From the NCBI GenBank assembly GCA_019314105.1, contig JAFCZY010000021.1, positions 1 to 13,195 of the forward strand: DNA of 13,195 nt, given 5' to 3'. The notes beneath the pieces were generated by a model. The model was given only the letters and a program-made list of their open reading frames with translations, was not told where the DNA came from and made no database searches. Positions 1-13,195 of this stretch are shown one piece after another; position 1 is the first letter of the stretch; every line of letters starts with the position of its first letter. Made by a program: the position numbers and the translations under genes. This DNA is from Deltaproteobacteria bacterium. GTDB lineage: Bacteria; Desulfobacterota; Desulfobacteria; Desulfobacterales; Desulfobacteraceae.

Positions 1-28
1 GTGTAAAATTTTTTAAAACCTGTTCCAT
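1..28 (-). CDS. Start of an unidentified gene, cut by the window edge
   Basis: On the minus strand an ATG at 28-26 opens a frame reading MEQVLKNFT before the window ends. It is preceded by a strong Shine-Dalgarno AGGAGG six bases upstream (plus-strand CCTCCT at about 35-40), which is why I accept so short a fragment. It lies downstream of the minus-strand ArsR gene with the same orientation, so it is probably another member of the metalloid-responsive unit. Nine codons are too few to assign a function. Confidence 0.5.
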
Positions 29-115
29 TCCTAACCTCCTCACGTTAATATTATTATATAGAGATTGATAGATGCGATGAGAATAAAAAAATACTATTCC
101 CGGCACAATGTCCTG

Positions 116-457
116 CTATTTAATGATATCTTTTCTGTCAATCTCTGGTAGCTTTACCATGATATCCATAATTTCGGGATCATCCTCCAGCCAGTGGCGC
201 ATGTTTCCGATCAGGCTTGCTGCATAGGGACTCTGGGTACCGTCCGCCAGGTTGTAATTTACCCACAGTCCGTCTTTTTCAAAAGAGATCAAGCCGGCAT
301 CCTCAAGTATTTTCAGATGTTTGCTGATGGTGGACTGCGCCCTGTCCAGAGCAGCCTGAATTTCACAGACGCACAGCATTTTTTTTTGCAGCATTTTTAA
401 TATCTTAACCCGGGTGGGATCGGACAACGCTTTTGTTACCTTTATAAATTCTTTCAT
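116..457 (-). CDS. arsR: ArsR/SmtB-family metalloregulatory repressor
   Basis: Small winged-helix repressor of the ArsR/SmtB family, expected to bind its operator as a dimer and release it on binding arsenite or antimonite. The N-terminal ALSDPTRVKIL helix, the helix-turn-helix segment around STISKHLKILEDAGLI and the wing are typical. The metal-sensing site is visible as LCVCEI, with Cys29 and Cys31 counted from the chosen start, the CVC motif of classical ArsR. An upstream in-frame ATG at 463-461 directly abuts the Shine-Dalgarno run AAAAGGGG and leaves no spacing, whereas the ATG at 457-455 sits six bases from it, so I start there (113 aa). The gene has its own near-consensus promoter in the gap before the thioredoxin-like gene, overlapped by an AT-rich inverted repeat, so autoregulation is likely. 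The inducer is inferred from the CVC motif and neighbours. Confidence 0.92.
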   Translation of the reverse strand: MKEFIKVTKALSDPTRVKILKMLQKKMLCVCEIQAALDRAQSTISKHLKILEDAGLISFEKDGLWVNYNLADGTQSPYAASLIGNMRHWLEDDPEIMDIMVKLPEIDRKDIIK

Positions 458-472
458 GTTCATCCCCTTTTT

Positions 473-517
473 ATATATTCAGATTAAGAAATATATCTTC
501 TGCCTCCACCCTGTCAA
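473..517 (-). promoter_or_regulatory. Promoter and probable operator of the minus-strand arsR
   Basis: Read on the minus strand there is a perfect -35 TTGACA (plus 512-517), a 16-base spacer and a -10 TATATT (plus 490-495). An imperfect inverted repeat overlaps the -10 (plus 473-480 ATATATTC and 488-496 GAAATATAT). A repressor site on the -10 box is the usual ArsR autoregulation layout. The hexamers are seen directly; operator function is inferred. Confidence 0.55.
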
Positions 518-548
518 GCCTTACTTGCCGGCATTTTCGACAACTCTC

Positions 549-782
549 CTATTTTGTCAGCCAGGCTTTGATATCACTTTTTTTGGGTACTTTGCCGGTA
601 CACTTTACTTCATTGTCAATGATAACGGACGGGGTGCCGAATACACCATAGGAAGCGATTTTCATCATGTCGGACACCTTTTCAATATCGGCATCCACAC
701 CGGTTTCATCTATGACTTCCCGTACCAGCTTTTCTGTTTTATTACATTTTGCACATCCAGGTCCAAGAATTTTAATTTCCAT
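549..782 (-). CDS. Small thioredoxin-like redox-active disulfide protein (CAKC)
   Basis: A 77-residue protein of the compact archaeal/bacterial thioredoxin-like type (redox-active disulfide protein 2 or MTH895-like). The active site GPGCAKC lies in the first turn after beta-1 (Cys10 and Cys13) and the conserved cis-proline follows in VFGTPSV (Pro51); a further Cys is at about 61. There is no signal peptide or membrane segment, so it is cytoplasmic. AGGAG lies six bases before the ATG. It is 33 bp downstream of the permease gene and co-oriented. Proteins of this kind are often found next to COG0701 permeases; a role in reducing or handing over a thiol-bound metalloid to the permease is an inference. 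A second thioredoxin-like domain is encoded on the other side of the permease. Confidence 0.85.
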   Translation of the reverse strand: MEIKILGPGCAKCNKTEKLVREVIDETGVDADIEKVSDMMKIASYGVFGTPSVIIDNEVKCTGKVPKKSDIKAWLTK

Positions 783-815
783 TTGAATCTCCTGACAACT
801 AATTTATAGTTAAAA

Positions 816-1868
816 TTAAATAATCATATTAAATAAATAACCCACCACCAGAATGCCGCTGGCAACGACACCGATAAAAACGGCAATCAGTTTGGGTTTG
901 AGCACTTTTCTCAAGATTACCATTTCCGGTAAAGAAAGGGCAATGACACTCATCATGAAGGCCAGCACTGTTCCAAGGGCTGCTCCTTTGCCCAGCAGGG
1001 CCTCCACAACGGGAATGATCCCTGCTGCATTGGAATACATGGGAACCCCGATAACAACAGACAAGGGCACAGACCACCAGGAACCCTTACCCATGACAGA
1101 GGCCATGACTCCTTCGGGAACAAATCCGTGGATACCGGCACCAACCGCAATGCCTATAATGACATATATCCAGACCCGGCCGATGATTTCCTTTACCGCA
1201 TCCCAGCCGTAAACAAGTCGATCTGTCCAGGTTAATTTTTCGTCCTCCATGGAAACACTGACCGCAACCGTTTCGGTCACCCAGTCTTCAATGTGATGTT
1301 CCAGTTTCAGTCGGCCGATGACCCAGCCTGCGCCGATGGCAATAAAAAGACCGGTTCCCAGGTAAATGGCAGCTACTTTCCAGCCCAAAAGTCCGTACAA
1401 AAGCCCTAAGGCAATCTCGTTGACCATGGGAGCTGCAATTAAAAAAGAGAAAGTCACCCCCAGGGGTACCCCGGCGGTGACAAACCCAATAAACAAGGGA
1501 ACAGCTGAACAGGAACAAAAAGGAGTGATAATACCTAAAAGAGCAGCCAGGATATTTCCTGCAAATTCACTTTTACCGGACAAAAATGCCCGGGTTTTCT
1601 CCGGCGTAAAAAAACTTCTGATGATGCCCACCCCGAAAACGACAAGAAACAACAGCATCATTACCTTGGGCGTATCATAGAAAAAAAATTCAATTGAAGA
1701 CCCCAGATGTGATCCGGTCTCAATGGGCAAAAGGCTGTAGGTCAGCCATGAGGACAGCCTGGGAAGTGTGTGATAAATTATCCACCACAGGTAGAGTCCG
1801 GTACCCCCCAGAATAAGATTAAACAACATCATCATTTTTGTGTTTTTATTAACTATTGTTGATTCCAT
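816..1868 (-). CDS. COG0701/ArsP-type permease
   Basis: Integral membrane protein of the DUF318/COG0701 permease family (Pfam ArsP_1), 350 aa with about eight to ten hydrophobic segments. The family signature TPFCSCSAVP is at residues 115-124 with Cys118 and Cys120, followed by a matching second half containing GVPMYSNAAGIIPVVEAL. ArsP members export trivalent organoarsenicals, with paired cysteines in this loop implicated in substrate binding; other members of the family are uncharacterised. The cytoplasmic loop around residues 185-215 is charged. AGGAGG lies four bases before the ATG. It is flanked on both sides by thioredoxin-like genes with short gaps (18 and 33 bp), suggesting a permease-redox carrier module. 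The arsenic context supports metalloid export but the exact substrate cannot be read from the sequence. Confidence 0.88.
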   Translation of the reverse strand: MESTIVNKNTKMMMLFNLILGGTGLYLWWIIYHTLPRLSSWLTYSLLPIETGSHLGSSIEFFFYDTPKVMMLLFLVVFGVGIIRSFFTPEKTRAFLSGKSEFAGNILAALLGIITPFCSCSAVPLFIGFVTAGVPLGVTFSFLIAAPMVNEIALGLLYGLLGWKVAAIYLGTGLFIAIGAGWVIGRLKLEHHIEDWVTETVAVSVSMEDEKLTWTDRLVYGWDAVKEIIGRVWIYVIIGIAVGAGIHGFVPEGVMASVMGKGSWWSVPLSVVIGVPMYSNAAGIIPVVEALLGKGAALGTVLAFMMSVIALSLPEMVILRKVLKPKLIAVFIGVVASGILVVGYLFNMII

Positions 1869-1886
1869 AATGCCTCCTGATATATA

Positions 1887-2408
1887 TTATGTATGGCTAT
1901 TTAACGATATATAAATTGATTTTTCAGCTTCTTTTAAAAATGCCTTGAGATCTGCACGGGAAGGAACAGTTCCCACTGCTTTGACTTTTCTGTTGATTAC
2001 CAGGGCTGGTACTCCCATCACCCCGTATCGACTGATTTCCTTAATGTCTCTCACGTGTACAAGATCAGCATCAATACCCATTTGTCCGATGACCATCATC
2101 AATTCCTGCTCCAGGCGGTCACAATTGGGACAGCCGCTGCCAAGAACCTTGACCTCAACATTTTCAAGCGGCAGCTCAGGAATCGACTCTCCCATGAATT
2201 TTTTATATTCCCTGAGAAGAACACTTTCATACAGTTCAGTCTCTGTTGACGGGATATAATTTTTTGAGGAAAGTTTTTCCATCATCAGGCCAACAATCTG
2301 TTCATCGGAAGGATTTCGAACCTTGCCAGCAACCTCTTCCAGCGCCTCTTTAAGGCCAACAATCCCTGTCATGTGCTTTCCTATTTTGAGTTGAGTGACA
2401 CTTGGCAT
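1887..2408 (-). CDS. Two-domain protein: unknown N-terminal domain plus CPNC thioredoxin-like domain
   Basis: First gene of the leftward transcription unit, 173 aa, no signal peptide. Residues 1 to about 80 form a mainly helical, charged domain that I do not recognise (it begins with a GKHMTGIVGLKEALEEVA segment). Residues 85-165 are a thioredoxin-like domain of the same compact type as the 77-aa protein downstream, with active site GSGCPNC (Cys93 and Cys96) and cis-Pro in MGVPALV (Pro134). The N-terminal domain may recruit the redox domain to a partner or substrate; this is inference. AGGAG lies seven bases before the ATG. Its promoter and an inverted-repeat operator lie immediately upstream. 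The end of the coding sequence contains TAACGATATA (1902-1911), identical to the operator half-site upstream. Confidence 0.8.
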   Translation of the reverse strand: MPSVTQLKIGKHMTGIVGLKEALEEVAGKVRNPSDEQIVGLMMEKLSSKNYIPSTETELYESVLLREYKKFMGESIPELPLENVEVKVLGSGCPNCDRLEQELMMVIGQMGIDADLVHVRDIKEISRYGVMGVPALVINRKVKAVGTVPSRADLKAFLKEAEKSIYISLNSHT

Positions 2409-2437
2409 TTAAATCTCCTGAAGTTAAATATATTTTC

Positions 2438-2467
2438 TATATCGTTAAAAGTGAATATAACGATATA
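2438..2467. promoter_or_regulatory. Perfect inverted repeat, probable ArsR operator
   Basis: TATATCGTTA (2438-2447) and TAACGATATA (2458-2467) are exact reverse complements separated by ten bases, so the half-site centres are 20 bp (two helical turns) apart. The repeat covers the -10 box of the leftward promoter. This is the expected position for a dimeric ArsR repressor. Which of the two ArsR proteins binds is unknown. Confidence 0.7.
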
Positions 2468-2482
2468 AAGATCTGCTGTCAA
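2454..2482 (-). promoter_or_regulatory. Promoter of the leftward permease/thioredoxin unit
   Basis: On the minus strand: -35 TTGACA (plus 2477-2482), 17-base spacer, -10 TATATT (plus 2454-2459). This is a near-perfect sigma-70 promoter and its -10 lies inside the inverted repeat 2438-2467, so repressor binding should block it. Confidence 0.7.
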
Positions 2483-2503
2483 GTTTTTTATGATAAAAAA
2501 TTA

Positions 2504-2532
2504 TTGACCCGGCATAAAATATCAAATATATA
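2504..2532 (+). promoter_or_regulatory. Promoter of the rightward arsR-arsC-acr3 unit
   Basis: -35 TTGACC (2504-2509), 17-base spacer, -10 TATATA (2527-2532), 37 bases before the arsR start. The -10 lies inside the self-complementary run AAATATATATTT (2524-2535), which could be part of a second repressor site. The hexamers are visible; activity is inferred. Confidence 0.65.
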
Positions 2533-2568
2533 TTTAGTTGTTTAGCTAATTATAAAAATGGAGACTCC

Positions 2569-2973
2569 ATGGACACTCTTCTGTTAATATTAAAAGCATT
2601 GTCGGACAAAAACAGGCTCAGAATTTTTTGTGCCCTGCTTTCTTATAAAGAACTTTGTGCCTGCCAGATTACTGAGTTCTTAAATGTTGCCGGTGCCACT
2701 GCATCCCGCCATTTAAGCCTCATGGTTACTGCCGGTCTGTTAAAAAACCGAAAACAGGGCCGTTGGGTATATTTTCGGATCAATACCAAAGACGCTTCCC
2801 TTGAACCAGTTGTTCTCTGGCTGAGTCAAAAACTTGAGGGCTCCACTCAAACAAAAAAAGATTTAAAGGCACTGCGGCAAATCATAGCGATTCCCTGTGA
2901 GGAGCTCAGCCAGAAACAGCGATCAGGTGGTTCATGTTCCAAAACCAGACAGGAGAACAAAAATAATGGCTGA
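2569..2973 (+). CDS. arsR: ArsR-family repressor, first gene of the rightward arsenic operon
   Basis: A 134-aa ArsR/SmtB-family winged-helix repressor. LKALSDKNRLRIFCALL matches the conserved N-terminal helix, and LCACQI carries the metalloid-binding CxC pair (Cys30 and Cys32) just before the DNA-reading helices (ATASRHLSLMVTAGLL), followed by a wing with GRWVYFRI. The C-terminal tail is extended, charged and Cys-containing (GGSCSK, Cys123), a possible extra ligand. It is clearly different from the minus-strand ArsR at 116-457. GGAG is five bases before the ATG, and the block ATGGAGACTCCAT (2558-2570) is self-complementary over the ribosome site and start. Its stop overlaps the next start by eight bases (2966-2973), implying coupled translation with arsC. 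It probably controls its own operon and perhaps the divergent one. Confidence 0.93.
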   Translation: MDTLLLILKALSDKNRLRIFCALLSYKELCACQITEFLNVAGATASRHLSLMVTAGLLKNRKQGRWVYFRINTKDASLEPVVLWLSQKLEGSTQTKKDLKALRQIIAIPCEELSQKQRSGGSCSKTRQENKNNG

Positions 2974-3289
2974 CAAATTAAAAATTTTATTTTTATGTAC
3001 AGGAATTGATATCTCCGGGCATACATCAAAACATGTCAATGATTTTAAAGATGTTACACTTGACCTTGTCATTACCGTCTGCGGTCATGCCCACGAGACC
3101 TGTCCTTATTTCCCGCCCCGTTGCCGGGTCATCCATGTGGGATTTGATGATCCACCGGAACTGGCAAGGAAACTTGCCCAAAAAGGGGCATCAAAAAAAG
3201 AGCAGCTATACTGCTACCGCAGGATCAGGGATGAAATAAAATTATTTGTCAAAGGATTGCCGGATAATCTTAAAAAAAGGAGAAATTAA
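2966..3289 (+). CDS. arsC: arsC-like arsenate reductase with internal deletion of the P-loop, probably inactive
   Basis: Thioredoxin-coupled arsenate reductase (low-molecular-weight phosphatase fold) family, but only 107 aa. The opening KILFLCTG is normal and then jumps straight to [11 protein letters not shown], so the family segment NSCRSQMAEG through the following helix and strand, about 35-45 residues, is missing in frame. In intact ArsC the first Cys (here Cys11) and an Arg form the CX5R phosphatase loop; the Arg and most of the loop are gone. The relay cysteines of VCGHAHETC (Cys39 and Cys46), the acidic GFDDP loop (60-63) and the C-terminal helix YRRIRDEI remain. I start at ATG 2966 (AGGAG at 2951-2955); longer in-frame starts would lie deep inside arsR. 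Unlikely to reduce arsenate by the known mechanism. Confidence 0.85.
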
Positions 3290-3291
3290 AA

Positions 3292-4476
3292 ATGAGTCAG
3301 GAAAATTGTACCACAGACAAACGGGAAATGACCAGTATCTTTGAACGGTACCTGACCGTATGGGTGGGACTATGTATTGCCGGCGGAATTTTATTGGGTA
3401 AAATTGCTCCTGACTTTGCCAAAACACTGGATGGTATGTCAATCAATGTCGGTGGTGCGCCTGTCGTATCCATCCCCATTGCAATCTGTCTTTTTTTCAT
3501 GATGTATCCCATCATGGTAAAAATAGATTTCGCCTCGGTCATACAAGCCGGGAAAAGCGGGAAACCCGTCTTTTTAACCCTTTTTATCAACTGGTGCATC
3601 AAACCCTTTACCATGTATGCCATTTCTTTATTTTTTCTCGGGTTTCTCCTTAAATCACTTATTGGGGTAGATGCCATTGATCTTGTCAAAATGCCCTTTG
3701 GCCTTGATCTTCCTGTAGGTGCCCAGCATGGAGCAGGAGTCGTTGTCTTGCAGGACGGTATAAAAATGCTGCAGATCCCTTTATGGAGAAGCTATTTTGC
3801 AGGGTGTATCCTTCTGGGGATTGCCCCGTGTACAGCCATGGTCCTGGTGTGGGGATACCTCTCCCGGGGAAATGACGGCTTAACCCTTGTCATGGTGGCC
3901 ATCAACTCTCTGACCATGCTGGTTTTATACGGTGTTCTGGGTGGTTTTCTTCTGGGAATAGGAAAGCTTCCCATCCCCTGGCAGGCATTGCTTTTATCTG
4001 TTGCCATCTATGTGGCCCTTCCACTGGTGACAGGCTATCTTTCAAGAAAATGGATTATTTCAGCCAAAGGGGAAACCTGGTTCAAGGAAAAATTCTTAGG
4101 TGTTCTGACCCCGGTGACCATCGGTGCATTACTGTTAACCCTTGTTTTACTGTTCAGTTTTAAAGGGGAAGTCATAACATCCAATCCTTTGACCATCGTG
4201 TGGATTGCCATTCCCCTTTTTATTCAGACCCTTCTTATTTTTGCCCTGGGCTATGGCGCTGCCAAACTGATGAACCTGAAATATGAAGATGCCGCCCCTG
4301 CCGCCATGATCGGTGCATCCAACCATTTTGAAGTAGCCATTGCAACGTCGGTCATGCTGTTTGGGCTTTCGTCGGGGGCAGCACTTGCAACCGTGGTAGG
4401 CGTTCTGATTGAAGTGCCGGTCATGCTGATGCTGGTGGGCTTTTGCAAACGTACCACTTATTGGTTTAATAATTAA
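3292..4476 (+). CDS. acr3: ACR3-type arsenite efflux transporter
   Basis: Inner-membrane arsenite exporter of the ACR3 branch of the BART superfamily, 394 aa with about ten membrane segments. Diagnostic motifs are [15 protein letters not shown] (Cys180, the conserved ACR3 cysteine needed for transport in characterised members) and [18 protein letters not shown] near residue 340. The N-terminal half also shows [20 protein letters not shown]. It is longer than the common 340-360 aa form, with an insertion of roughly 30 residues at about 120-165 (around [16 protein letters not shown]) between two membrane segments. AAGGAG is nine bases before the ATG and the gap from arsC is two bases, so it is in the same transcript. 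With arsC damaged, this pump would serve arsenite already present, as is plausible for an anaerobe in reduced sediment. Confidence 0.95.
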
Positions 4477-4483
4477 TCCTTAA

Positions 4484-4621
4484 AAACTAGATTTAAATGG
4501 TGTTACGACTGAGGAGTTGTCATCATATTTTCATCCTTATCTGACATTGTCTGAAGGAATTAAGCTGGCAGCAACCACTTTTGAAAAGAATATTGAGTCT
4601 CTAAGCTGTTGTGCAAGCTAA
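4484..4621 (+). pseudogene. Probable 3' remnant of an unidentified gene
   Basis: Immediately after acr3 an open frame without any ATG runs from just after a TAA (4481-4483) to a TAA at 4619-4621. It translates to about 45 residues that look protein-like: NGVTTEELSSYFHPYLTL, then SEGIKLAATTFEKNIESL, ending SCCAS. A terminal pair of cysteines suggests thiol or metal chemistry. It ends 29 bases before the TTG start of the next gene, the spacing of a normal operon member, so it is probably the 3' end of a gene whose 5' part was deleted when it was joined to acr3. I do not recognise the family. It could also be non-coding sequence. Confidence 0.4.
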
Positions 4622-4650
4622 GAGTAAATTATTTACATAGGAGAAATATT

Positions 4651-4884
4651 TTGGACAATGTAATCTGTTATTGTTTTGAATACACAGCCGAGGACATAAA
4701 AAAAGATTATCATAAAAATGGAAAGTCTTTAATTATGGAAAAAATCATTACTGAAAAAAAGTCTGGGGGATGTACTTGTGCTGAAAAGAACCCTAAGGGG
4801 AAATGATGCCTCAGTGATGTTCGCCAGGTGGTGAATGAAATAAAATCAGCAAATGGTGGCGCAATCACCCCGTTTATCAGCTAA
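4651..4884 (+). CDS. Putative selenoprotein: BFD/CopZ-like [2Fe-2S] protein with Sec at UGA 4804-4806
   Basis: With UGA 4804-4806 read as selenocysteine the frame gives 77 residues and ends at TAA 4882-4884. Before the UGA the protein matches the small BFD-like [2Fe-2S] domain found in the archaeal/bacterial copper chaperone CopZ: ICYCFEYTAEDI (Cys6 and Cys8), then GGCTCAEKNPKGK (Cys41 and Cys43). In that family NPxG is followed by CCLG(D/N)V; here it is followed by UGA, then CLSDVRQVVNEIK, so Sec52 takes the place of the first Cys. A conventional reading would stop at 51 residues, losing the conserved CC motif and final helix. The start is TTG 4651 with AGGAG seven bases upstream (4639-4643); an earlier in-frame ATG at 4609 lies in the preceding remnant. 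A SECIS-like hairpin lies at 4818-4837. Role inferred: electron or metal(loid) handling. Confidence 0.75.
4818..4837 (+). promoter_or_regulatory. Candidate bacterial SECIS hairpin for the BFD-like selenoprotein
   Basis: 4818-4825 pairs with 4830-4837: eight pairs, of which three are G-U, closing the four-base loop AGGU. The loop begins 19 bases after the UGA and has G at its second position. These fit the known bSECIS requirements (loop about 16-37 bases after UGA, a G among the first two loop bases, an upper stem of at least four pairs). It lies within coding sequence, as bacterial SECIS elements do. Pairing was found by eye, without energy calculation. Confidence 0.5.
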
Positions 4885-4904
4885 ACTACAGGAGTCAACC
4901 TAAA

Positions 4905-5108
4905 ATGGAAGGACTGAACATGATTGAGTTCCCAGCTAATTCAACCGCACCGCTAAGAGAATACTTTAATCAGAATCAAGATAAAGTACGATTTTTGGCT
5001 TTATTGTCTCCGACATGACCTAAATGATATAACAATGGTGCCCGTGCGGTACAAAAGTCTGTTCTAAAAGCGTTCCCTGATGCTGATAGTTGTGTTGGTA
5101 TTGTATGG
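4905..5108 (+). pseudogene. Putative thioredoxin-like selenoprotein (UxxU), apparently truncated at its 3' end
   Basis: From ATG 4905 (GGAG ten bases upstream; alternative ATG 4920) the frame reads through two TGA codons, 5016-5018 and 5025-5027. The protein has a beta strand VRFLALLSPT, then U-P-K-U (positions 38 and 41), then YNNGARAVQKSVLKAF and PDADSCVGIVW. This is the beta-CxxC-helix-beta start of a thioredoxin fold with both active-site cysteines as UGA. After Trp68 (5106-5108) the sequence no longer looks like the fold and the frame, open to 5244, runs antisense into argC, so the 3' part seems lost. It lies 20 bases after the upstream selenoprotein gene. I recall a family called thioredoxin-like (seleno)protein SaoT from a selenocysteine-assisted organometal system; membership is only a suggestion. 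One TGA could instead be a decay mutation. Confidence 0.6.
5038..5052 (+). promoter_or_regulatory. Candidate SECIS hairpin in the thioredoxin-like selenoprotein gene
   Basis: 5038-5042 (GTGCC) pairs with 5048-5052 (GGTAC) in five pairs including one G-U, closing loop CGTGC with G second. The loop starts 24 bases after the first UGA and 15 after the second, so one hairpin could serve the first and marginally both. The stem is short, so confidence is limited. Confidence 0.35.
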
Positions 5109-5136
5109 GGCAACGAAACTATTAGTTTCAGAATAA

Positions 5137-6174
5137 TTACAAAGGCCCTTGAACCGAATTCAAGCCTGTTTCATCATTTAAACCAAACAGTATATTCATG
5201 TTTTGAACCGCCTGGCCCGCTGCACCCTTTAAAAGATTGTCAATGACAGAAACAATAATGATCTGGCGCTTTGTTTCATCAAAGTGAAAGCCGATATCAC
5301 AGCAGTTCGTCCCTTTAACATAAGAAATTGCCGGGTAAGTATCTTTATCCAGTATCCTCACAAAAGGCTCATCACCATAATAGGCATCATACATTTTTCT
5401 GATATTTTTTTCGGTTGCATCATTTGTTGTCTGAGCATAAATCGTTGACAGCATTCCCCTTGTTAAAGGCAATAAATGTGGAACAAAAGTGATGGCTACT
5501 CTTTGTTGTGAGTGGCTGCTCAAAATTTCATTGATTTCAGGGGTATGCCGGTGGTTCCCGATTTTATAGGCATTGAATGATTCATTGGCTTCGCAAAAAT
5601 GAGTGGAAGGCGATAAAGAACGTCCTGCACCGCTTACACCGGATTTTGAATCTGAAATAATGTTATCAGGCCGGATCAAACCCTCCTTTAAAAGGGGAAG
5701 TAAGGGCAATAGAATGCTGGTTGGATAACAGCCTGGGTTGCCGACAAGGTTTGATGTTTTTATCCGGTCTCTGTATATTTCACTAAGACCATAGACGCTT
5801 TCTTTTAAAAGATGCCTTGAGGTGTGTGTTTGATAGGCGGATTCATAAGCTTTTGCATCTGTAAATCTGTAGTCTGCGGACAAGTCAATAACTTTTATCT
5901 TATGTTCAAGCAGTGCCGGCACATGCATCATTGATACTTTGTGGGGCAGTGCTAAAAACATGACATCTACTTTTTGGGAAAGTGATTGAATATCTAAATC
6001 TTCACAAATCAGATTTTCAAATCCTCTCATGGAAGGGAAAATATTCGTTAAAGATTTACCTTTATAGCTGTTTGATGTCACAGCACACAATTTAGTTTTT
6101 GGATGATTGGAAATCAATTTGACAAGCTCAACGCCTGTGTATCCGGATGCTCCTGCAATGCCTACGTTTATCAT
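5137..6174 (-). CDS. argC: N-acetyl-gamma-glutamyl-phosphate reductase
   Basis: Third enzyme of arginine biosynthesis: NADPH-dependent reduction of N-acetylglutamyl-5-phosphate to the semialdehyde, in the cytoplasm. Length 345 aa is normal. The N-terminal dinucleotide-binding loop GIAGASGYTGVEL (residues 5-17) and the catalytic motif GNPGCYPTS with nucleophile Cys149 are intact, as are LSADYRF, KSGVSGAGR, the HRHTPEI histidine region and the C-terminal NLLKGAAGQAVQNMN motif. AGGAAG precedes the ATG. It is the last gene of the minus-strand block, 99 bp downstream of aapP, possibly co-transcribed with the amino-acid importer. Its 3' end sits close to the truncated thioredoxin-like selenoprotein gene on the opposite strand, with no terminator visible between them, so this may be the junction between chromosome backbone and the arsenic region. 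Confidence 0.97.
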   Translation of the reverse strand: MINVGIAGASGYTGVELVKLISNHPKTKLCAVTSNSYKGKSLTNIFPSMRGFENLICEDLDIQSLSQKVDVMFLALPHKVSMMHVPALLEHKIKVIDLSADYRFTDAKAYESAYQTHTSRHLLKESVYGLSEIYRDRIKTSNLVGNPGCYPTSILLPLLPLLKEGLIRPDNIISDSKSGVSGAGRSLSPSTHFCEANESFNAYKIGNHRHTPEINEILSSHSQQRVAITFVPHLLPLTRGMLSTIYAQTTNDATEKNIRKMYDAYYGDEPFVRILDKDTYPAISYVKGTNCCDIGFHFDETKRQIIIVSVIDNLLKGAAGQAVQNMNILFGLNDETGLNSVQGPL

Positions 6175-6273
6175 ATGCTTCCTTATTGGATTATCCCCCA
6201 GTTAACGATAGTGGAGACTAGTGGATATAAAAAAATCGACAGTAAAAATCTGTAATAAAATACTAAGAATTTA

Positions 6274-7047
6274 TTAATACAAAATCTGGCTTAGAAATGT
6301 TTTGGTTCTATCATTTTGAGGATTATTGAAAAATTCTTCGGGTTCGTTTTCTTCAATAATCTCTCCTTCGTCCATAAAAAGAACCCTGTGGGCAACACTT
6401 TTTGCAAACCCCATTTCATGGGTGACAACAATCATGGTCATTCCCCCCTGTGCCAAGTCTATCATGACATCCAGAACCTCTTTTACCATTTCAGGATCAA
6501 GGGCTGAAGTCGCCTCATCAAACAGCATTATATTGGGTTTCATGCAAAGACTTCGAGCAATTGCCACCCGTTGTTGCTGTCCTCCGGATAGCTGTCCAGG
6601 GAATTTTGCTGCCTGTTCTGCAATTTGAACTTTTTCAAGATAAACCATGGCCATTTCTTCAGCTTCTTTTTTGGGTATTTTCCTTACCCATATAGGCCCT
6701 ATTGTTAAATTTTCAACAATTGTAAGGTGGGGAAATAAATTGAAATGCTGGAACACCATTCCCACCTCGGACCTGACTTTTTCAATGTTTTTAAGGTCCT
6801 TGGTAAGCTCAATACCGTCAACGATTATTTGCCCTTTCTGGTGCTCTTCAAGCCGGTTTATGCATCTTATAAGCGTTGATTTTCCAGATCCGGATGGACC
6901 ACAAACAACAATAATCTCTTTTCTTTTAACAGTGAGATTAATATTGTTTAAAACATGAAAATCACCGTACCATTTATGCATATTGATGATTTCAATCACT
7001 GTATCTTCACTTGAAATATCTTCTTTTCTATTTTTTTTTTCAGTCAT
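6274..7047 (-). CDS. aapP: General L-amino-acid ABC transporter, ATP-binding protein
   Basis: ATPase subunit of a polar/general amino-acid importer of the AapP/GlnQ type, 257 aa, cytoplasmic face. Walker [10 protein letters not shown] is at residues 50-58, the Q-loop in [13 protein letters not shown], the ABC signature LSGGQQQR near 158, Walker [14 protein letters not shown], and the switch histidine in [10 protein letters not shown]. The first 15 residues are a charged extension before the ABC core. It would drive the two permeases encoded just upstream (42-bp gap to aapM). No strong Shine-Dalgarno is visible before the ATG, so translation may depend on upstream genes. Assignment to Aap rather than glutamine or glutamate systems rests on the two unusually long permeases next door. 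Confidence 0.95.
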
Positions 7048-7089
7048 AAATAATCGCTTTATACATATTATTGTTAATAATAATTATGG

Positions 7090-8181
7090 TTATAATCCTG
7101 TATCAAGTTCTTTTTCCAGCTTTCTGCTATAGTTAGACATAAAAAAACAACACCCAAAATAAATGATGGCGATAAATATATATGCTTCTGCTGAGAACCC
7201 CATCCATTTTGGTTCTGATAATGTTACCTGTGTCGTTTTTAATAAATCGTATAATCCAATGATAACGACAAGGGATGTATCTTTAAACGCTGAAATTAAA
7301 ATGCTGACAGAAGGCGGAATAACAATTTTTAATGCCTGTGGCAGGATAATCAACCGCATGGTCTGGAAATAATTCAACCCAAGGGAATCAGCTGCTTCAA
7401 ATTGTCCTTTGTTCATTCCCTGTAAGCCGCCTCTGACCACTTCGGCAATATAGGCTGCCGTAAACATGATAATGGCAACTTGAGCTCTTAAGATGGCATT
7501 TATGGACACCCCTTCCGGCAGGAATAAGGGAAAAACCACAGAAGACATAAATAATAAACTGATTAACGGAACACCCCGTATCAATTCGATATAAAAGATA
7601 CAGAAGGTTTTAAATACCGGCATTTTTGACTGTCGTCCCAGAGCCAGAAAAACACCTAAAGGGTAGGCGGCGGTCAGGCCAAAAACAGATAAAAGTAATG
7701 TAAGGATAATTCCGCCCCATTTTTGTATATCAACTGTTTCAAGACCGAAAATCCCTCCTTTTAACAATATTCCCATAATGACCAATGAAATAATCCAGGT
7801 GTATCCAAGAAAGGCATTCCAGTAATTTCTATTTCGACTGATAAATAGTAAGATTACCAGCATGAAAATGGCCGTTATCGGACGCCATAAGATATTCTGG
7901 GGATAAAATCCAAAAAGAATAATTTTATAATTACTGGAGATAACGGACCAGCAGGCACCGCCTGATGCCTTGCAGTTTGCATCCGGCAGCCAGGAACTGT
8001 CGATTAAAGCCCATTTTAAAAAAGGAATAATGGAGAACCATAAGATACTGATAATAATAATAGTTAGAAAGGTATTAAAAGGGCTGGAAAATAAATTTTC
8101 TCTGATCCACCCCGGAATACCAACACTTGATATAGGTGGTTTGATTATTACCTGGCCTTCATTCTTTTTAGTTAATTCCAT
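7090..8181 (-). CDS. aapM: General L-amino-acid ABC transporter, permease AapM
   Basis: Inner-membrane permease of the HisM/GlnP family in the long Aap form (363 aa against about 220 for simple amino-acid permeases). After a cytoplasmic N-terminus, hydrophobic segments begin near 38-58; a periplasmic stretch rich in Cys, Gly and Trp (about 65-80) follows. The C-terminal half carries the standard domain with the ATPase-contacting EAA loop around 248-278 (EVVRGGLQGMNKGQ, EAADSLGL, then LPQALKIVIPP). It pairs with AapQ to form the translocation pore. It lies 21 bp downstream of aapQ in the operon. The ATG has only a weak upstream ribosome site. Confidence 0.93.
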   Translation of the reverse strand: MELTKKNEGQVIIKPPISSVGIPGWIRENLFSSPFNTFLTIIIISILWFSIIPFLKWALIDSSWLPDANCKASGGACWSVISSNYKIILFGFYPQNILWRPITAIFMLVILLFISRNRNYWNAFLGYTWIISLVIMGILLKGGIFGLETVDIQKWGGIILTLLLSVFGLTAAYPLGVFLALGRQSKMPVFKTFCIFYIELIRGVPLISLLFMSSVVFPLFLPEGVSINAILRAQVAIIMFTAAYIAEVVRGGLQGMNKGQFEAADSLGLNYFQTMRLIILPQALKIVIPPSVSILISAFKDTSLVVIIGLYDLLKTTQVTLSEPKWMGFSAEAYIFIAIIYFGCCFFMSNYSRKLEKELDTGL

Positions 8182-8202
8182 AAAAATTTGATGTTACCAT
8201 CA

Positions 8203-9384
8203 TCACCTTTCTATTATCGCCATTTTTTTATTATACCAATTCATAAAGGCAGACGTTGATAAACTGAATATAAGATATACAATCATGATTAACAGAACCC
8301 CCTCAATTGCCTGTCCTGTCTGATTTATCGCAGTTCCGGCAACCGAAACAAAATCCGGATACCCAATGGCTACAGCAAGAGAGCTGTTTTTCGTTAAATT
8401 GAGCATCTGGCTTGTTAAAGGCGGAATAATAACCCGTAATGCCTGGGGTAGAATGATGAGATTTAAAAGCTGCCCGGGTTTCAAACCAATGGCCATTGCC
8501 GCTTCAGTCTGACCTTTATTGACGGATTGAATTCCTGCTCTTACAACTTCAGCAACAAACGCTGCCGTATATAAAACAAGTCCTAAAAGAAGTGCCGCAA
8601 ACTCAGGGCTGATGGTTAACCCCCCCTTAAAATTAAATCCTTTTAATACAGGAACGCTCATTTCAGTCGGAGCTCCGCCAATTAACCAGGAGACAAAAGG
8701 CAGACCTAATATTAATGCTATTGAAGTATAAAAAACAGGAAATGCCTTACCCGTTAAATCCTGCCTTTTTTGAGCCCATTTTTTCAGGAGAAACATAATA
8801 ATAACTGCAATTAATATAGCCATTGCCATATATTTATAAACCGGATGGGCTTGTGGGATTCCAAAAATCAACCCTCTGTTACATAAAAACAGGCCATTGA
8901 ATGGACTTAGAGCCTCTCTTGGAGATGGCAGCATCTCATAAAAAAAAGCATACCAGAAAAAAAGCTGTAATAAGATCGGTATGTCTTGAAAGAGTTCAAT
9001 ATATCCTGTTGCACATTTATTAATCAGCCAGTTTTTTGATAATCGGGCTACCCCGAGAAATGTTCCAAGGATAACCGTTAGAATAATACCAATAAATGAT
9101 ACCAGAAGGGTATTTAAAAAACCGACAGAAAGAGCTCTAGCATACCTGTCTGCTGCTGAATACTCAATTAAAGACTCTCCAATTTCAAAAGCAGCTTCTT
9201 TATGTAAAAATCCAAATCCTGTTGCAATGGATTGTCTTTCCAAATTGGCCATTGTATTGGAAATGAGGTACCATGCAACAAAAGCAAACAAACAAGCTGC
9301 GCCAATCTGATAAAGTATGGACCGTTTATCAGGATCATACCAGAAGGATATGTCCTCAGAATTTTTATTATTAATTGTATTCAT
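8203..9384 (-). CDS. aapQ: General L-amino-acid ABC transporter, permease AapQ
   Basis: Second inner-membrane permease of the Aap importer, 393 aa, the usual length for AapQ. The first membrane segment is at about 27-42. A first permease stretch, ALSVGFLNTLLVSFIGIILT (84-103), is separated by a long insertion with extra hydrophobic segments (about 185-235) from the canonical C-terminal part with the EAA loop (EVVRAGIQSVNKGQ, EAAMAIGL, LPQALRVIIPP, 279-322). The split domain with a central insertion is characteristic of AapQ. It is separated from aapJ by 73 bp containing a terminator-like hairpin and has a weak AGAAAG ribosome site. Confidence 0.93.
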   Translation of the reverse strand: MNTINNKNSEDISFWYDPDKRSILYQIGAACLFAFVAWYLISNTMANLERQSIATGFGFLHKEAAFEIGESLIEYSAADRYARALSVGFLNTLLVSFIGIILTVILGTFLGVARLSKNWLINKCATGYIELFQDIPILLQLFFWYAFFYEMLPSPREALSPFNGLFLCNRGLIFGIPQAHPVYKYMAMAILIAVIIMFLLKKWAQKRQDLTGKAFPVFYTSIALILGLPFVSWLIGGAPTEMSVPVLKGFNFKGGLTISPEFAALLLGLVLYTAAFVAEVVRAGIQSVNKGQTEAAMAIGLKPGQLLNLIILPQALRVIIPPLTSQMLNLTKNSSLAVAIGYPDFVSVAGTAINQTGQAIEGVLLIMIVYLIFSLSTSAFMNWYNKKMAIIER

Positions 9385-9404
9385 TATACTTTCTAAATAC
9401 TTTT

Positions 9405-9437
9405 AAAAAAGTATGGTGCAATTTTCATTGCACCATA
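9405..9437 (-). terminator. Intra-operon hairpin with U-tract between aapJ and aapQ
   Basis: TATGGTGCAA (9412-9421) and TTGCACCATA (9428-9437) are perfect reverse complements with a six-base loop. Read in the direction of transcription (minus strand) the stem is followed after one C by six Ts (plus 9405-9410), a classic intrinsic terminator. In binding-protein operons such partial terminators, and 3'-end stabilising hairpins, keep the binding protein in excess over the permeases. Confidence 0.75.
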
Positions 9438-9457
9438 AATAAATGCAAAAATTTAGT

Positions 9458-10471
9458 TTATTTAAATGGTGGAGAATACATCAAGCCACCATCTGTCCAA
9501 AGTGCATTCAGCCCTCTTTCAATTCCAAGCTGAGTATTCACTCCCACATTTCTTTCAAAAATTTCGCCGTAATTCCCTACCATTTTAATGATATTGTAAG
9601 CAAATTTTTCATCCAGCCCCAGCGCTTTTCCATTTCCTTTTGTAACGCCTAAAAATCTTTGTATTTTGGGATTTTTGCTTTTCAGCATTTCATCAACATT
9701 TTTAGACGTAATACCCAGTTCTTCAGCATTAATCATGGCAAGTACAGAATAGTTAACAATATCTTTCCATTGATTATCTCCATGTCTTACTGCAGGCGCC
9801 AACGGTTCTTTTGAAATGATATCCGGAAGGATCATGTAGTCATCAGGATTTGGAGCCACTGCGCGCGTTCCTGCAAGCTGGGATGCATCTGATGTTAAAC
9901 AGTCGCATCTGCCGGCAAAAAAGGCCTTGGCAAGTTCGGCGGTGTCTTCAATAACAACCGGATTCATTTTCATTCCGTTTGTCCTGAAATAATCAGCAAC
10001 GTTCATTTCTGTGGTCGTTCCGGGAAGGACACAAACAGTCGCACCATCAAGTTCTTTAGCACTTTTAACCCCCAGTTTTTTAGGAATCAGGAATCCTTGA
10101 CCATCATAATAATTTACCACAGCAAAATCAAGGCCAAGAGCCGTGTCCCGGCTTAAGGTTTGGGTACAATTTCTGAAAAGAACGTCAATTTCTCCTGACT
10201 GCAATGCTGTAAATCTTGTTTTAGCTGTTAAAGGAGTGAATTTTAATTTGTCGGGACTGCCAAATACGGCAACAGAAACAGCCCTGGCAGAATCAACATC
10301 AAGGCCTCTCCAGACACCTTTGTCATCCGCTTTTCCAAAACCAAAAAGACTGCCGTTGACGCCGGCCTGAATCCATCCCTTTGCTCTAACATCTTCAAGT
10401 GTTCCAGCCATGGTTAATGTGGACATGGCAAGAACGGTGATGCAAACAGCCAATACTTTTAATACTTTCAT
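9458..10471 (-). CDS. aapJ: General L-amino-acid ABC transporter, periplasmic binding protein
   Basis: Periplasmic solute-binding protein (family 3) of the Aap importer, 337 aa. An N-terminal signal peptide is clear: positive MKVLK, hydrophobic core and probable cleavage after TMA at residue 22. Mature-sequence features typical of AapJ are LEDVRAKGWIQAGVNGSLFGF, GLDVDSARAVSVAVFG, the ligand-site TALQSGEIDVLFRN, and the C-terminal NYGEIFERNVG and GLNALWTDGGLMYSPPF, which are characteristic of this binding-protein class. It is the first gene of aapJQMP; AGGGAG lies several bases before the ATG. A long AT-rich leader lies upstream; I could not pick a convincing promoter there. Confidence 0.96.
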   Translation of the reverse strand: MKVLKVLAVCITVLAMSTLTMAGTLEDVRAKGWIQAGVNGSLFGFGKADDKGVWRGLDVDSARAVSVAVFGSPDKLKFTPLTAKTRFTALQSGEIDVLFRNCTQTLSRDTALGLDFAVVNYYDGQGFLIPKKLGVKSAKELDGATVCVLPGTTTEMNVADYFRTNGMKMNPVVIEDTAELAKAFFAGRCDCLTSDASQLAGTRAVAPNPDDYMILPDIISKEPLAPAVRHGDNQWKDIVNYSVLAMINAEELGITSKNVDEMLKSKNPKIQRFLGVTKGNGKALGLDEKFAYNIIKMVGNYGEIFERNVGVNTQLGIERGLNALWTDGGLMYSPPFK

Positions 10472-10664
10472 AGAAACTCTCCCTTTATTTGCTTAACGTT
10501 AATAGATTCCGGATAATCCCATTGAATTACCCGGATATTTGTATAACATGATTCTTTGAACTTTTTGAAACTTTTGTAGTATTAGCAGATTCGTAATATT
10601 TTTCAAGAATTAAATTAAATCAACTGGATATTTTTGATAACTGCCAATTGTTTTATTTATTCCA

Positions 10665-10910
10665 TTGAGATTCGAGGTGCCTGATCACCTATGGAGATTC
10701 AGGGATGTCTTATTCTCCCTAGTGCCTGAATAATTTTTGAAAGTTCACAAATATCTTCCATTGGACGGCAAAAACTCACTCGTTCCTTGTTCAAACAATT
10801 TGCCGTCTTAACCATTCCAGATATTTGGAACTTTACCAAAAATCACAGGCAAACCGGTCGAACAAGACACCCTTGAATCTCCTTGATACCCTAACCCCCA
10901 ATCACCCTGA
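10665..10910. repeat. Long imperfect inverted repeat (foldback element)
   Basis: The left half (about 10665-10773) and the reverse complement of the right half (about 10799-10910) align along most of their length with small gaps. Exact blocks, left/right: GGAGATTCA 10693-10701/10874-10882; AAAGTTC 10740-10746/10828-10834; CAAATATCT 10748-10756/10819-10827; GACGGCAAA 10764-10772/10799-10807. The centre is an unpaired run of about 26 bases. Smaller hairpins sit inside the left arm (AGGTG/CACCT at 10675-10690; ATTCAGG/CCTGAAT at 10697-10731). No coding sequence is evident. It could be a MITE-like element, two inverted copies of a dispersed repeat, or a structured RNA. The outer limits are approximate. 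Confidence 0.6.
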
Positions 10911-10917
10911 CACGCCC
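10889..10917 (-). other. G-quadruplex-capable run on the minus strand
   Basis: The plus strand carries four C-runs of three to five bases at 10889-10917; on the minus strand these are G3, a 7-base loop, G3, a 5-base loop, G5, a 3-base loop, then G3. A further GGG lies on the minus strand at 10870-10872. This is unusual in such AT-rich DNA. Formation of a quadruplex is a prediction from the pattern only. Confidence 0.35.
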
Positions 10918-11062
10918 GATCAATCATTACCAAGATCAGACCATGGAAAACAGATGCCTGGATTCAGAATATCCCTTTACATTATTTTTTTGGTATGGCA
11001 GGGTGATTTGAGCTGTTATTAAAAATAAATGGGGATTTTCTACTTTTTAATAGTATTATTTC

Positions 11063-11149
11063 AATAAATAGAAAAATTATCCATTGTATATTGGTAATAT
11101 ATAGAGTTTTTTCTATTTATTTACACTGTTGAACAAAACCGCTACGCGG
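11063..11149. repeat. Perfect 14-bp inverted repeat and GC hairpin near the probable left end of the IS91-type element
   Basis: AATAAATAGAAAAA (11063-11076) and TTTTTCTATTTATT (11108-11121) are exact reverse complements separated by 31 bases. Just beyond, CCGC-TAC-GCGG (11139-11149) forms a small hairpin preceded by GAAC (11131-11134). IS91-family elements have non-identical ends with short hairpins and insert at GAAC/CAAG-like tetranucleotides, so this may be the element's left terminus. The link is an inference. The rest of 11022-11272 is AT-rich with no gene seen. Confidence 0.35.
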
Positions 11150-11237
11150 AAGCAAATTCAAGCTTCTTTTTTAAACAATAAATAGCTGAATTATTCCGAA
11201 ATTTTCTTTTAAAACTTTTTTTAATGAGTCATCCTTT

Positions 11238-11267
11238 CCTGAATATTAACCTATAATGTTCAGGAGG
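11238..11267 (+). promoter_or_regulatory. Inverted repeat over the integrase ribosome-binding site
   Basis: CCTGAA (11238-11243) is complementary to TTCAGG (11259-11264), and the second arm overlaps the strong Shine-Dalgarno AGGAGG (11262-11267) that lies five bases before the integrase ATG. Folding would hide the ribosome site and dampen expression. A -10-like TATAAT (11252-11257) lies in the loop but has no good -35. Confidence 0.35.
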
Positions 11268-11272
11268 AAAAA

Positions 11273-11932
11273 ATGACCAAACTAAGAAGAGCATTTGAAA
11301 ATCATCTTATTTTAAAAAGGTACTCTTCAAAGACAAACGAAGCTTACATCCTTGCAGTAAAAGGGCTTGCTAACTATCATCAACAAAGCCCTGACAAATT
11401 ATCAGATGAACAGATTCAAGATTATTTTAGATATCTGATAAAAGATCGCAAGTATGCCTGGAGCTCCTGTAATGTAACATTTTGCGGGATTAAATGTTTC
11501 TATGACAATGTGCTTCACAGGGATACCAAGATAATGATCCCGCCCAGACCAAGACAGAAAACCCTTGCAACAATTTTAAGTCCAAAGGATGTCAAAAAAT
11601 TATTGGAATCCTGCACTAACCTCAAACACCGGGCACTTCTTTATGCAGTATATAGTGCAGGCTTAAGAGTCAGTGAGGTAGTTGCACTTAAGCCGATACA
11701 TATAGAAAGATCCCGTAAAATGATACGGGTAGATCAGGGCAAAGGCAGAAAAGACAGATACACTGTTTTATCCGATGCGCTCTTAACGGAACTGGAAAAT
11801 TATTGGCGCGAATACCGCCCTGAGAAATGGCTTTTCTTTGGTAAGGATAAATCCAAACCTATGCCTGTAGGAACAGCCCAGCAGATTTATTACACTGCAA
11901 AAAAAAGAGCCAGGATTACCAAGGGTAGTTGA
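11273..11932 (+). pseudogene. Tyrosine recombinase of an IS91-type element, disrupted by a short deletion
   Basis: Phage-integrase/XerD-like recombinase. The N-terminal SAM-like core-binding domain (residues 1-95, starting LRRAFENHLILKRYSSKT) and the start of the catalytic domain are present, with the first catalytic Arg in YSAGLRVSEV (Arg132) and the beta-hairpin lysine region GKGRKDRYTVL. The frame ends after KKRARITKGS at a TGA (11930-11932), where intact relatives continue with a box like GIHTLRHSFATHL. That box carries the second catalytic histidine and arginine and is absent. The frame resumes directly downstream in another phase (11932-12090) with the LGHKS and tyrosine segment. A deletion of about 12-13 codons plus a phase change explains both. 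Recombinase activity should be lost. Confidence 0.85.
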
Positions 11933-12090
11933 TGGAAAAGGGAATACAAACGCATACCATTAAACGTATGCTGGGTCATAAATCCATAGTCACCACTGCT
12001 GGATATATCCATATTTCACAAGAATTTCTATCCACTGTTAAAAGCCCTTTGGATATGCTTTATGAAGATTTTAAGGGGAGTGTACAGTGA
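11932..12090 (+). pseudogene. C-terminal fragment of the disrupted tyrosine recombinase
   Basis: A 52-codon frame starting MEKGIQTHTIKRMLGHKSIV, followed by TTAGYIHIS. It holds the third-box histidine (LGHKS) and the nucleophilic tyrosine (GYIH) of the integrase and ends at TGA 12088-12090. It follows the truncated integrase in a different phase. The ATG at 11932 may allow translation to continue, mainly to couple expression of the transposase, whose GTG overlaps its stop by four bases. Confidence 0.8.
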
Positions 12091-13195
12091 AGAATATATG
12101 CTGCGATGAAAGCAGCAAATCACAAAAACCAGGTATTGAAATTGCTGATATATTTAACGAGCATGGGCAAGATTTTCTTGATCACCATCCAGCCTCTCAT
12201 GCACAAGTTGGTGTTATGAATAAGATCGTAACCTGCCGCACTGCAGCACAGGGCGGGCATATGGATTTTTGTGATTCATGCGGCCATACTCAAAATTTCT
12301 ATAATTCATGCCGGAACCGGCATTGTCCCAAATGTCAGACCATGGCAAAAGAACACTGGCTCAATGCCCGTAAAGCAGAGCTTTTGCCGGTCGCATATTT
12401 TCATTTGGTCTTTACTTTACCCCATGATTTAAATCCCATAATTCTCTGCAATATGAAGGTACTGCTTGATTTATTGTTTTCATCGGTGAATGAAACCATC
12501 AAAGTTTTTGCAGCAGATCCCCAATGGCGGCTTGAAGGAAATCCAGGCTTTATAGGAGTCCTTCACACATGGACACAAACCATGATGGATCATTTCCACC
12601 TGCATTGTCTCATTCCCGGCGGAGTGCTTTCAGATGACAAGGAACAATGGACATCCTCAAAGACAAATTTTCTTTTCAGAACAAAATCATTGGTGCTGGC
12701 ATTTAAGAATATTTATATCAAAGGTTTAAAAAAACTTTATAAGGAAGGTTCCTTGCAATTTCCGGGCAATACATCCAAATATGAAAATGATGATCAATTT
12801 GATCGCTTAATCAAAACAATTGCCGGGAAAAAATGGTCAGGCTATGCAAAAGCACCTTTTTCAGGTCCTGAAAAAGTATTGGAATATCTTGGCCGATATA
12901 CCCACAGAGTGGCTATCTCCAATTATCGCATCAAATCCATGGACAATGGCAAAGTAAGTTTTATCTGGAAAGATCGTGCAGAAGATAACAAGACAAAACT
13001 CATGATTCTTGATGCTGAAGAATTTATCCGCAGGTTTTTGCTTCACGTCCTTCCCAAAGGATTTAGGAAAATAAGGTATTTTGGATTTTTATCCCCAAGA
13101 TATAAAACCCAAAACATTAGAACAATCAGGAAACTGCTGAATGAAGATTCCGAAGGATACATATTCCCCAAAGATGAATCTGTCCAGGAAATGAT
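12087..13195 (+). CDS. IS91-family HUH (Y2) transposase, 3' end outside the window
   Basis: Rolling-circle transposase, at least 369 codons, open to the last base. It begins with GTG 12087 (GGGGAG six bases upstream), overlapping the integrase-fragment stop as GTGA. The N-terminal zinc-binding region has FCDSCGH and NSCRNRHCPKCQ (about residues 65-95). ELLPVAYFHLVFTLPH is the family's typical core. The metal-binding HUH motif is H171-L-H173 in DHFHLHCLIPGG, and the paired catalytic tyrosines are Y267 and Y271 in EYLGRYTHRVAI. These residues all appear intact, so the transposase itself may work although the linked recombinase is broken. Such recombinase-transposase pairs are a known arrangement in IS91-type elements. 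The right end and origin lie beyond the window. Confidence 0.93.
   Translation, partial: MKNICCDESSKSQKPGIEIADIFNEHGQDFLDHHPASHAQVGVMNKIVTCRTAAQGGHMDFCDSCGHTQNFYNSCRNRHCPKCQTMAKEHWLNARKAELLPVAYFHLVFTLPHDLNPIILCNMKVLLDLLFSSVNETIKVFAADPQWRLEGNPGFIGVLHTWTQTMMDHFHLHCLIPGGVLSDDKEQWTSSKTNFLFRTKSLVLAFKNIYIKGLKKLYKEGSLQFPGNTSKYENDDQFDRLIKTIAGKKWSGYAKAPFSGPEKVLEYLGRYTHRVAISNYRIKSMDNGKVSFIWKDRAEDNKTKLMILDAEEFIRRFLLHVLPKGFRKIRYFGFLSPRYKTQNIRTIRKLLNEDSEGYIFPKDESVQEM

Follow-up and report, generated by a model that had tools for sequence, protein, structure and literature searches.

CopZ of Archaeoglobus fulgidus is a two-domain copper chaperone. Among selenoproteins, a "(2Fe-2S)-binding protein (copper chaperone CopZ family) form 1" is listed in two reviews (PMC9312934; PMC13188914), with domain class cd10141 and one selenocysteine (Sec, U) directly before Cys in a G-x-U-C motif; PMC13188914 gives the motif citing Zhang and Gladyshev 2008, a paper whose main text makes no mention of CopZ or 2Fe-2S. 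The table entries of these reviews for form 1 (representative WP_245779778.1), which our protein resembles by motif, name neither operon nor function. The Csac_0668 family (NF045877 CopZ_Nterm_CU, form 2 in the 2026 review) is also a CopZ-like [2Fe-2S] selenoprotein but bears CU, not UC. Here, we describe a 13,195-nt stretch of a Deltaproteobacteria bacterium genome (Desulfobacteraceae; GCA_019314105.1, contig JAFCZY010000021.1, positions 1 to 13,195, forward strand; the whole stretch is called the window), in which the frame at 4651-4884 is almost certainly a selenoprotein gene of the CopZ-like [2Fe-2S] GxUC family with its UGA decoded as Sec, lying among arsenic (ars) genes. A preliminary description had proposed an unannotated BFD/CopZ-like selenoprotein, which is borne out by all sequence tests applied, and had known of no described case, a view that the two reviews correct: the gene appears to be an additional member of a known selenoprotein family, and what seems undescribed is its ars context. 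No function of the GxUC family was found described in the literature searched, and the ars-operon context was not found in print, prior mention being possible in Haft and Gwadz 2023, Haft and Tolstoy 2025 and Zhang and Gladyshev 2007.

The frame runs from a TTG behind a good Shine-Dalgarno sequence to a TAA and encodes 77 residues, in-frame UGA included (coordinates in Table 1). Translated with Sec it gives LDNVICYCFEYTAEDIKKDYHKNGKSLIMEKIITEKKSGGCTCAEKNPKGK-U-CLSDVRQVVNEIKSANGGAITPFIS, in which CYC, CTC and NPKGK precede the UGA in this order and Cys53 follows it (NPKGK-U-C), all as first described. Two sets were searched: 145 related genomes, and a phylum sample of 395 genomes that includes the window and some of the related genomes. 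Matches were found in 33 of the 145, and 30 loci were laid out; codon 52 is TGA, followed by Cys, in 29 of 29 copies spanning it (L008-L036, window included, and also L009, which a contig end truncates on its upstream side), and in the 30th locus (L037) similarity ends ahead of that codon. The phylum sample gave matches in 86 of 395 genomes, and among 59 matches with E <1e-15, 57 have one internal TGA and two have none, a count that does not place the TGA; its placement comes from a motif reading of 70 of 81 fetched loci, with U at the motif site in 67, C in one and an unclear residue in two. Cys is encoded at the Sec52 site in 66 Cys-form loci, retrieved with a pattern that required CC and was hence blind to Sec forms; their proteins are mostly longer, and the majority belong to other groups (Acidobacteria, Methanoperedens, Nitrospirota etc., some labelled Deltaproteobacteria). 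Sec stands in for a Cys shared by all the aligned Cys forms (alignment A3), namely the first of the CC motif on which the UGA had been said to fall. Over 406 pairs, the mean proportion of nonsynonymous differences (pN) was 0.28 in the 28 codons before the UGA versus 0.24 in the 12 codons after it and that of synonymous differences (pS) fell from 0.86 to 0.49, as expected if coding and RNA structure overlap. The preliminary description had suggested looking for homologues with Cys or U at residue 52 and conservation beyond, and for selA, selB, selC and selD in the genome; such homologues exist, and tRNA-Sec, SelA, SelB and SelD are all present, each over its family cut-off. The genome's own SelD gene (L075, G000:C186:8213-9133) carries an in-frame TGA, and its product is probably a selenoprotein itself.

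The hairpin announced at 19 bases after the UGA is real and conserved, but that distance applies to its apical AGGU loop, the stem starting at 11 nt (4818-4825 pairs with 4830-4837). In the bacterial Sec insertion sequence (bSECIS) the loop lies 16-37 nt from the UGA and has an early G; the window hairpin agrees with these limits. All 29 sequences can be folded into one shared 8-bp stem closed by a 4-nt loop, which is AGGU in 22; 94% of 232 stem cells pair, 13 cells are changed on both sides, and shifting one arm by 1-3 columns leaves at most 69.8% paired. Among 500 shuffles, a control that leaves the relatedness of the sequences in place, the values for cells, percentage paired and covariation score were never reached (0/500 each). 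Double changes occur in 3 of 8 pairs, a number within that of the shuffles (206/500), and the number of pair types is also within theirs (300/500). Within the stem, Arg is encoded by CGC in 25 of 25 cases versus 18 of 89 Arg codons upstream (p 6e-14), and the second Val by GTG in 28 of 28 versus 7 of 33 (p 4e-11); on this codon use, synonymous sites after the UGA are held by the predicted hairpin. In the window all eight pairs are intact, including two wobble pairs at the stem base.

That gene callers would stop at the UGA was foreseen correctly: of 129 homologues found, 120 were listed, among them the window's own, and of these 110 stop immediately ahead of the UGA, eight read W, one reads R and one diverges. 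We attribute the W calls to contigs translated under a code that assigns W to TGA. A genuine Trp at this codon was ruled out as a reading: the genome has Sec machinery, a hairpin follows the codon and relatives carry Cys there. Some homologues (P0025, P0029, P0054, P0062, P0065 and others) are ~122-125 residues long and carry an HMA domain (PF00403) at the N-terminus, ahead of the BFD domain; they too are cut at the UGA. No NCBIfam model reaches its cut-off for the Sec protein: NF047645 CopZ_Nterm_CC, the best family match, scores 52.3 bits over residues 2-57 (cut-off 100) and NF045877 23.0 bits (cut-off 190); Pfam Fer2_BFD (PF04324) likewise stays at 14.8 bits under a gathering cut-off of 26. 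The Cys forms retrieved have CC where the Sec protein has UC, and most of them bear ~85-140 residues before the domain, which stands alone in the Sec protein. With GKUC, one Sec and a CopZ-like domain, the window protein has the G-x-U-C motif of form 1.

The Sec gene begins 174 nt after the ACR3 gene on the same strand, and its position beside arsenic genes, noted at the outset, holds for ACR3, ArsR, ArsE and ArsP_1 in the window. Neighbourhoods were read within 4 kb on either strand in 70 of 81 loci that could be oriented (11 unrecognised by a strict pattern were left out) for six ars-type clusters (ArsP_1, ArsR, ArsE, ArsC, ACR3 and ArsM), with RND-like pumps named by eye. ArsP_1 occurs near 17 of the 70 Sec loci, ArsR near 13, ArsE 12, TauE 11, ArsC 10, ACR3 7, RND-like pumps 7 and ArsM 6; at least one of the six clusters lies near 23 and at least two near 18. 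ArsP_1 ends within ~30 nt of the approximate Sec gene start, on the same strand, in nine loci that span four families (f116, f123, f136, f154), six of them from one family. If each locus had a 2% chance, a value that we assume, 17 of 70 would give p 4e-14, although the loci are related; ArsP_1 itself is found in 307 of the 395 phylum-sample genomes, in a survey that scored at most five candidates per genome, so that copy numbers are floors. Near Cys-form loci, some on short contigs, ArsP_1 was found in 1 of 66 (versus 17/70, p 6e-5). The tree built from 69 copies has poor resolution, 39 of its 66 inner branches being open, and the ars label needs 14 changes on it, versus a shuffled mean of 19.5 (2/500 as low). 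Because ArsP_1, ArsC, ACR3 or ArsE lies near 21 of 70 Sec loci versus 2 of 66 Cys loci, but any of all six near 23 of 70 versus 16 of 66, the ars link is with these four genes and does not extend to ArsR-type regulation at large; the majority of copies are found in other settings.

In the mechanism we propose, the protein would have a BFD-like fold in which Cys6, Cys8, Cys43 and Cys53 hold the [2Fe-2S] cluster; beside it Sec52, together with Cys41, an additional invariant Cys, would be a free reactive selenol. In ars operons, electrons passing through the cluster might let the selenol reduce an arsenical, or the selenol might bind the arsenical; the trivalent product could then be passed to ArsP_1 or ACR3, whichever efflux permease is the neighbour, and the thioredoxin-like ArsE proteins of the operon might take part. 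The function is predicted from sequence; we favour the whole explanation, Sec decoding, [2Fe-2S] BFD fold and arsenical role together, by a little over an even chance, and place the arsenical role of the selenol in ars operons, taken by itself, a little below an even chance. Three points weigh against that role: the absence of a difference between Sec and Cys loci for the six clusters together; the 47 of 70 Sec loci that have none of the six within 4 kb; and the screen of Cys loci itself, whose database was the proteins of the Sec loci, so that distant homologues may escape and the contrast is perhaps inflated. A general CopZ-type metal chaperone (for copper, mercury, zinc etc.), with ars operons as one home among others, would account for those 47 loci, for the HMA domain in some database homologues and for plasmid relatives, several of which are annotated as copper chaperone CopZ family among the ten listed of 15 matches; we consider it unlikely, though worth keeping in view, given that ArsP_1, ArsE, ArsC or ACR3 accompany so many more Sec than Cys loci and that the ArsP_1-adjacent order recurs in four families. 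Among the same ten, plasmid matches H2 and H10 lie on merA or merB annotations with the Sec-site residue unread, which suggests that some members of the wider family occur in mercury contexts.

Damage to the ars island, which the preliminary description had missed, bears on whether the window copy still matters. The arsC remnant lacks the segment after LCTG, which in an intact relative (L055) holds NSCRSQ and is the active-site segment. Right downstream of the Sec gene, a second frame with two in-frame UGAs, likewise missed, reads LLSPTUPKUYNNGARAVQKSVL...VGIVW (UxxU); a longer metagenome relative, P0123, has W at both UGA sites and continues with IKMNAKDDMTAAKKALQDF, a remainder that is gone from the window. 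The start of this frame matched only the window itself in the 395-genome sample, and the 96-residue frame matched no NCBIfam or Pfam family and one large-database protein, which itself matched no NCBIfam family. Positions 4708-4995 are 89.6% identical to a contig of another family (G122:C52), where similarity also stops inside the second frame. Similarity to argC of five same-genus genomes starts at 5132-5137, which is the end of argC itself, so the island junction is not fixed by that alone; the stretch before it is the likely edge. Full-length matches were absent from the same-genus genomes sampled, one of which (G004) has two partial matches. Because of the arsC deletion, the broken second frame and the lack of full-length same-genus copies, the sequence points to an acquired and damaged island; misassembly or misbinning is also possible. 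The Sec protein could accordingly be a relic in a decaying (or misassembled) island, no longer of use here, as these same observations and the breaking off of the two-UGA frame before argC would have it; we regard this as rather improbable, since the Sec gene is intact, its eight stem pairs are kept, and changes from the close copy are mostly synonymous before the UGA (pS 0.33, pN 0.026), with a weaker contrast after it (pS 0.18, pN 0.086). Between ACR3 and the Sec gene, a short open frame (4484-4618, +) ends in ...EKNIESLSCCAS, matches no Pfam family and is perhaps what is left of the 3' part of a lost gene. A phage-integrase-type recombinase fragment and, by eye, a transposase-like frame occupy the far end of the contig (11273-13193, +).

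Table 1. Features of the window, with coordinates, strand and basis of assignment
Feature	Position	Strand	Basis
Shine-Dalgarno AGGAG	4639..4643	+	7 nt spacer to TTG, direct reading
Predicted CDS of Sec-containing CopZ/BFD-like [2Fe-2S] protein, 77 aa	4651..4884	+	translation and homologues
In-frame UGA, predicted Sec52	4804..4806	+	TGA in 29/29 spanning copies; Cys in 66 distant loci
SECIS-like hairpin, 8 bp stem, AGGU loop 4826-4829	4818..4837	+	pairing and synonymous constraint
ACR3 arsenite efflux transporter, upstream neighbour	3292..4476	+	TIGR00832, 368.2 bits, over cut-off
arsC remnant, segment after LCTG missing	2966..3289	+	only positions 50-127 of TIGR02691 matched
ArsR-family regulator	2569..2973	+	PF01022
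MTH895/ArsE-family thioredoxin-like protein	1887..2408	-	TIGR00412, 86.3 bits
ArsP_1 permease, divergent, ~2.8 kb upstream of Sec gene	816..1868	-	PF03773, 249.5 bits
Second ArsE-family thioredoxin-like protein	549..782	-	TIGR00412, 105.3 bits
5' part of second frame, two UGAs (5016-5018, 5025-5027)	4920..5108	+	translation, relative P0123
Likely edge of ars island; second frame breaks off before argC 3' end	5109..5136		P0123 similarity ends ~5108

A cluster-bearing BFD fold is predicted for the Sec protein with good confidence. Bfd ranks top in VIA-align 2 over 15 chains, a structural match to solved Bfd (4e6k, 6e6r); a Foldseek search of the PDB gave no match below E 5. By sequence, the only relevant solved relative is the N-terminal domain of A. 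fulgidus CopZ (2hu9, E 0.0083), which shares the CYC ... C ... pattern and ends in NPSGRCC, with residue 52 falling on its Cys118, and differs in having Cys for Sec and no second CxC. Bfd itself has CxxC as its second pair, no NPxG insert and no Sec. The candidate ligands are invariant in 27 aligned Sec forms. In the structure comparison (aligned ranges), Cys53 is aligned with Bfd 41, a cluster ligand position, and with CopZ 119; the partner of Sec52 is Bfd 40, which is no ligand. Since Cys53, not Sec52, takes the ligand position, Sec52 is probably a selenol beside the cluster in this model, and the earlier suggestion of Sec as a cluster ligand is weakened. Ligation of the [2Fe-2S] cluster by Sec52 in place of Cys would fit its standing for the invariant Cys of the Cys forms and its adjoining the presumed ligand Cys53, but appears quite unlikely with Sec52 on a non-ligand position (aligned ranges only) and six invariant chalcogens available for four ligand places. 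A genuine stop at the UGA, with a 51-residue peptide as product, as gene calls ending there mechanically imply, is vanishingly improbable, and UGA as a plain stop is ruled out by TGA conservation, the conserved hairpin and protein constraint beyond the UGA, next to the Cys relatives and the full Sec machinery.

In 110 of the 120 listed copies the annotation stops short at the UGA, which hides a widely kept family from arsenic-operon surveys, and the conserved hairpin together with the NPxGxUC motif gives a direct rule to correct it. A selenol-bearing [2Fe-2S] ferredoxin might even be a dedicated partner of ArsP-type permeases, reducing or capturing the arsenical at a Sec adjoining the cluster and handing it to the pump, with the UxxU redox protein as a helper; we think this improbable, and if true it would be a seleno-metallochaperone coupled to electron transfer. 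Should the ars link hold, selenium use would be joined to arsenic detoxification in anaerobes, in a small protein that lends itself to testing and whose selenol would lie next to an iron-sulfur cluster.
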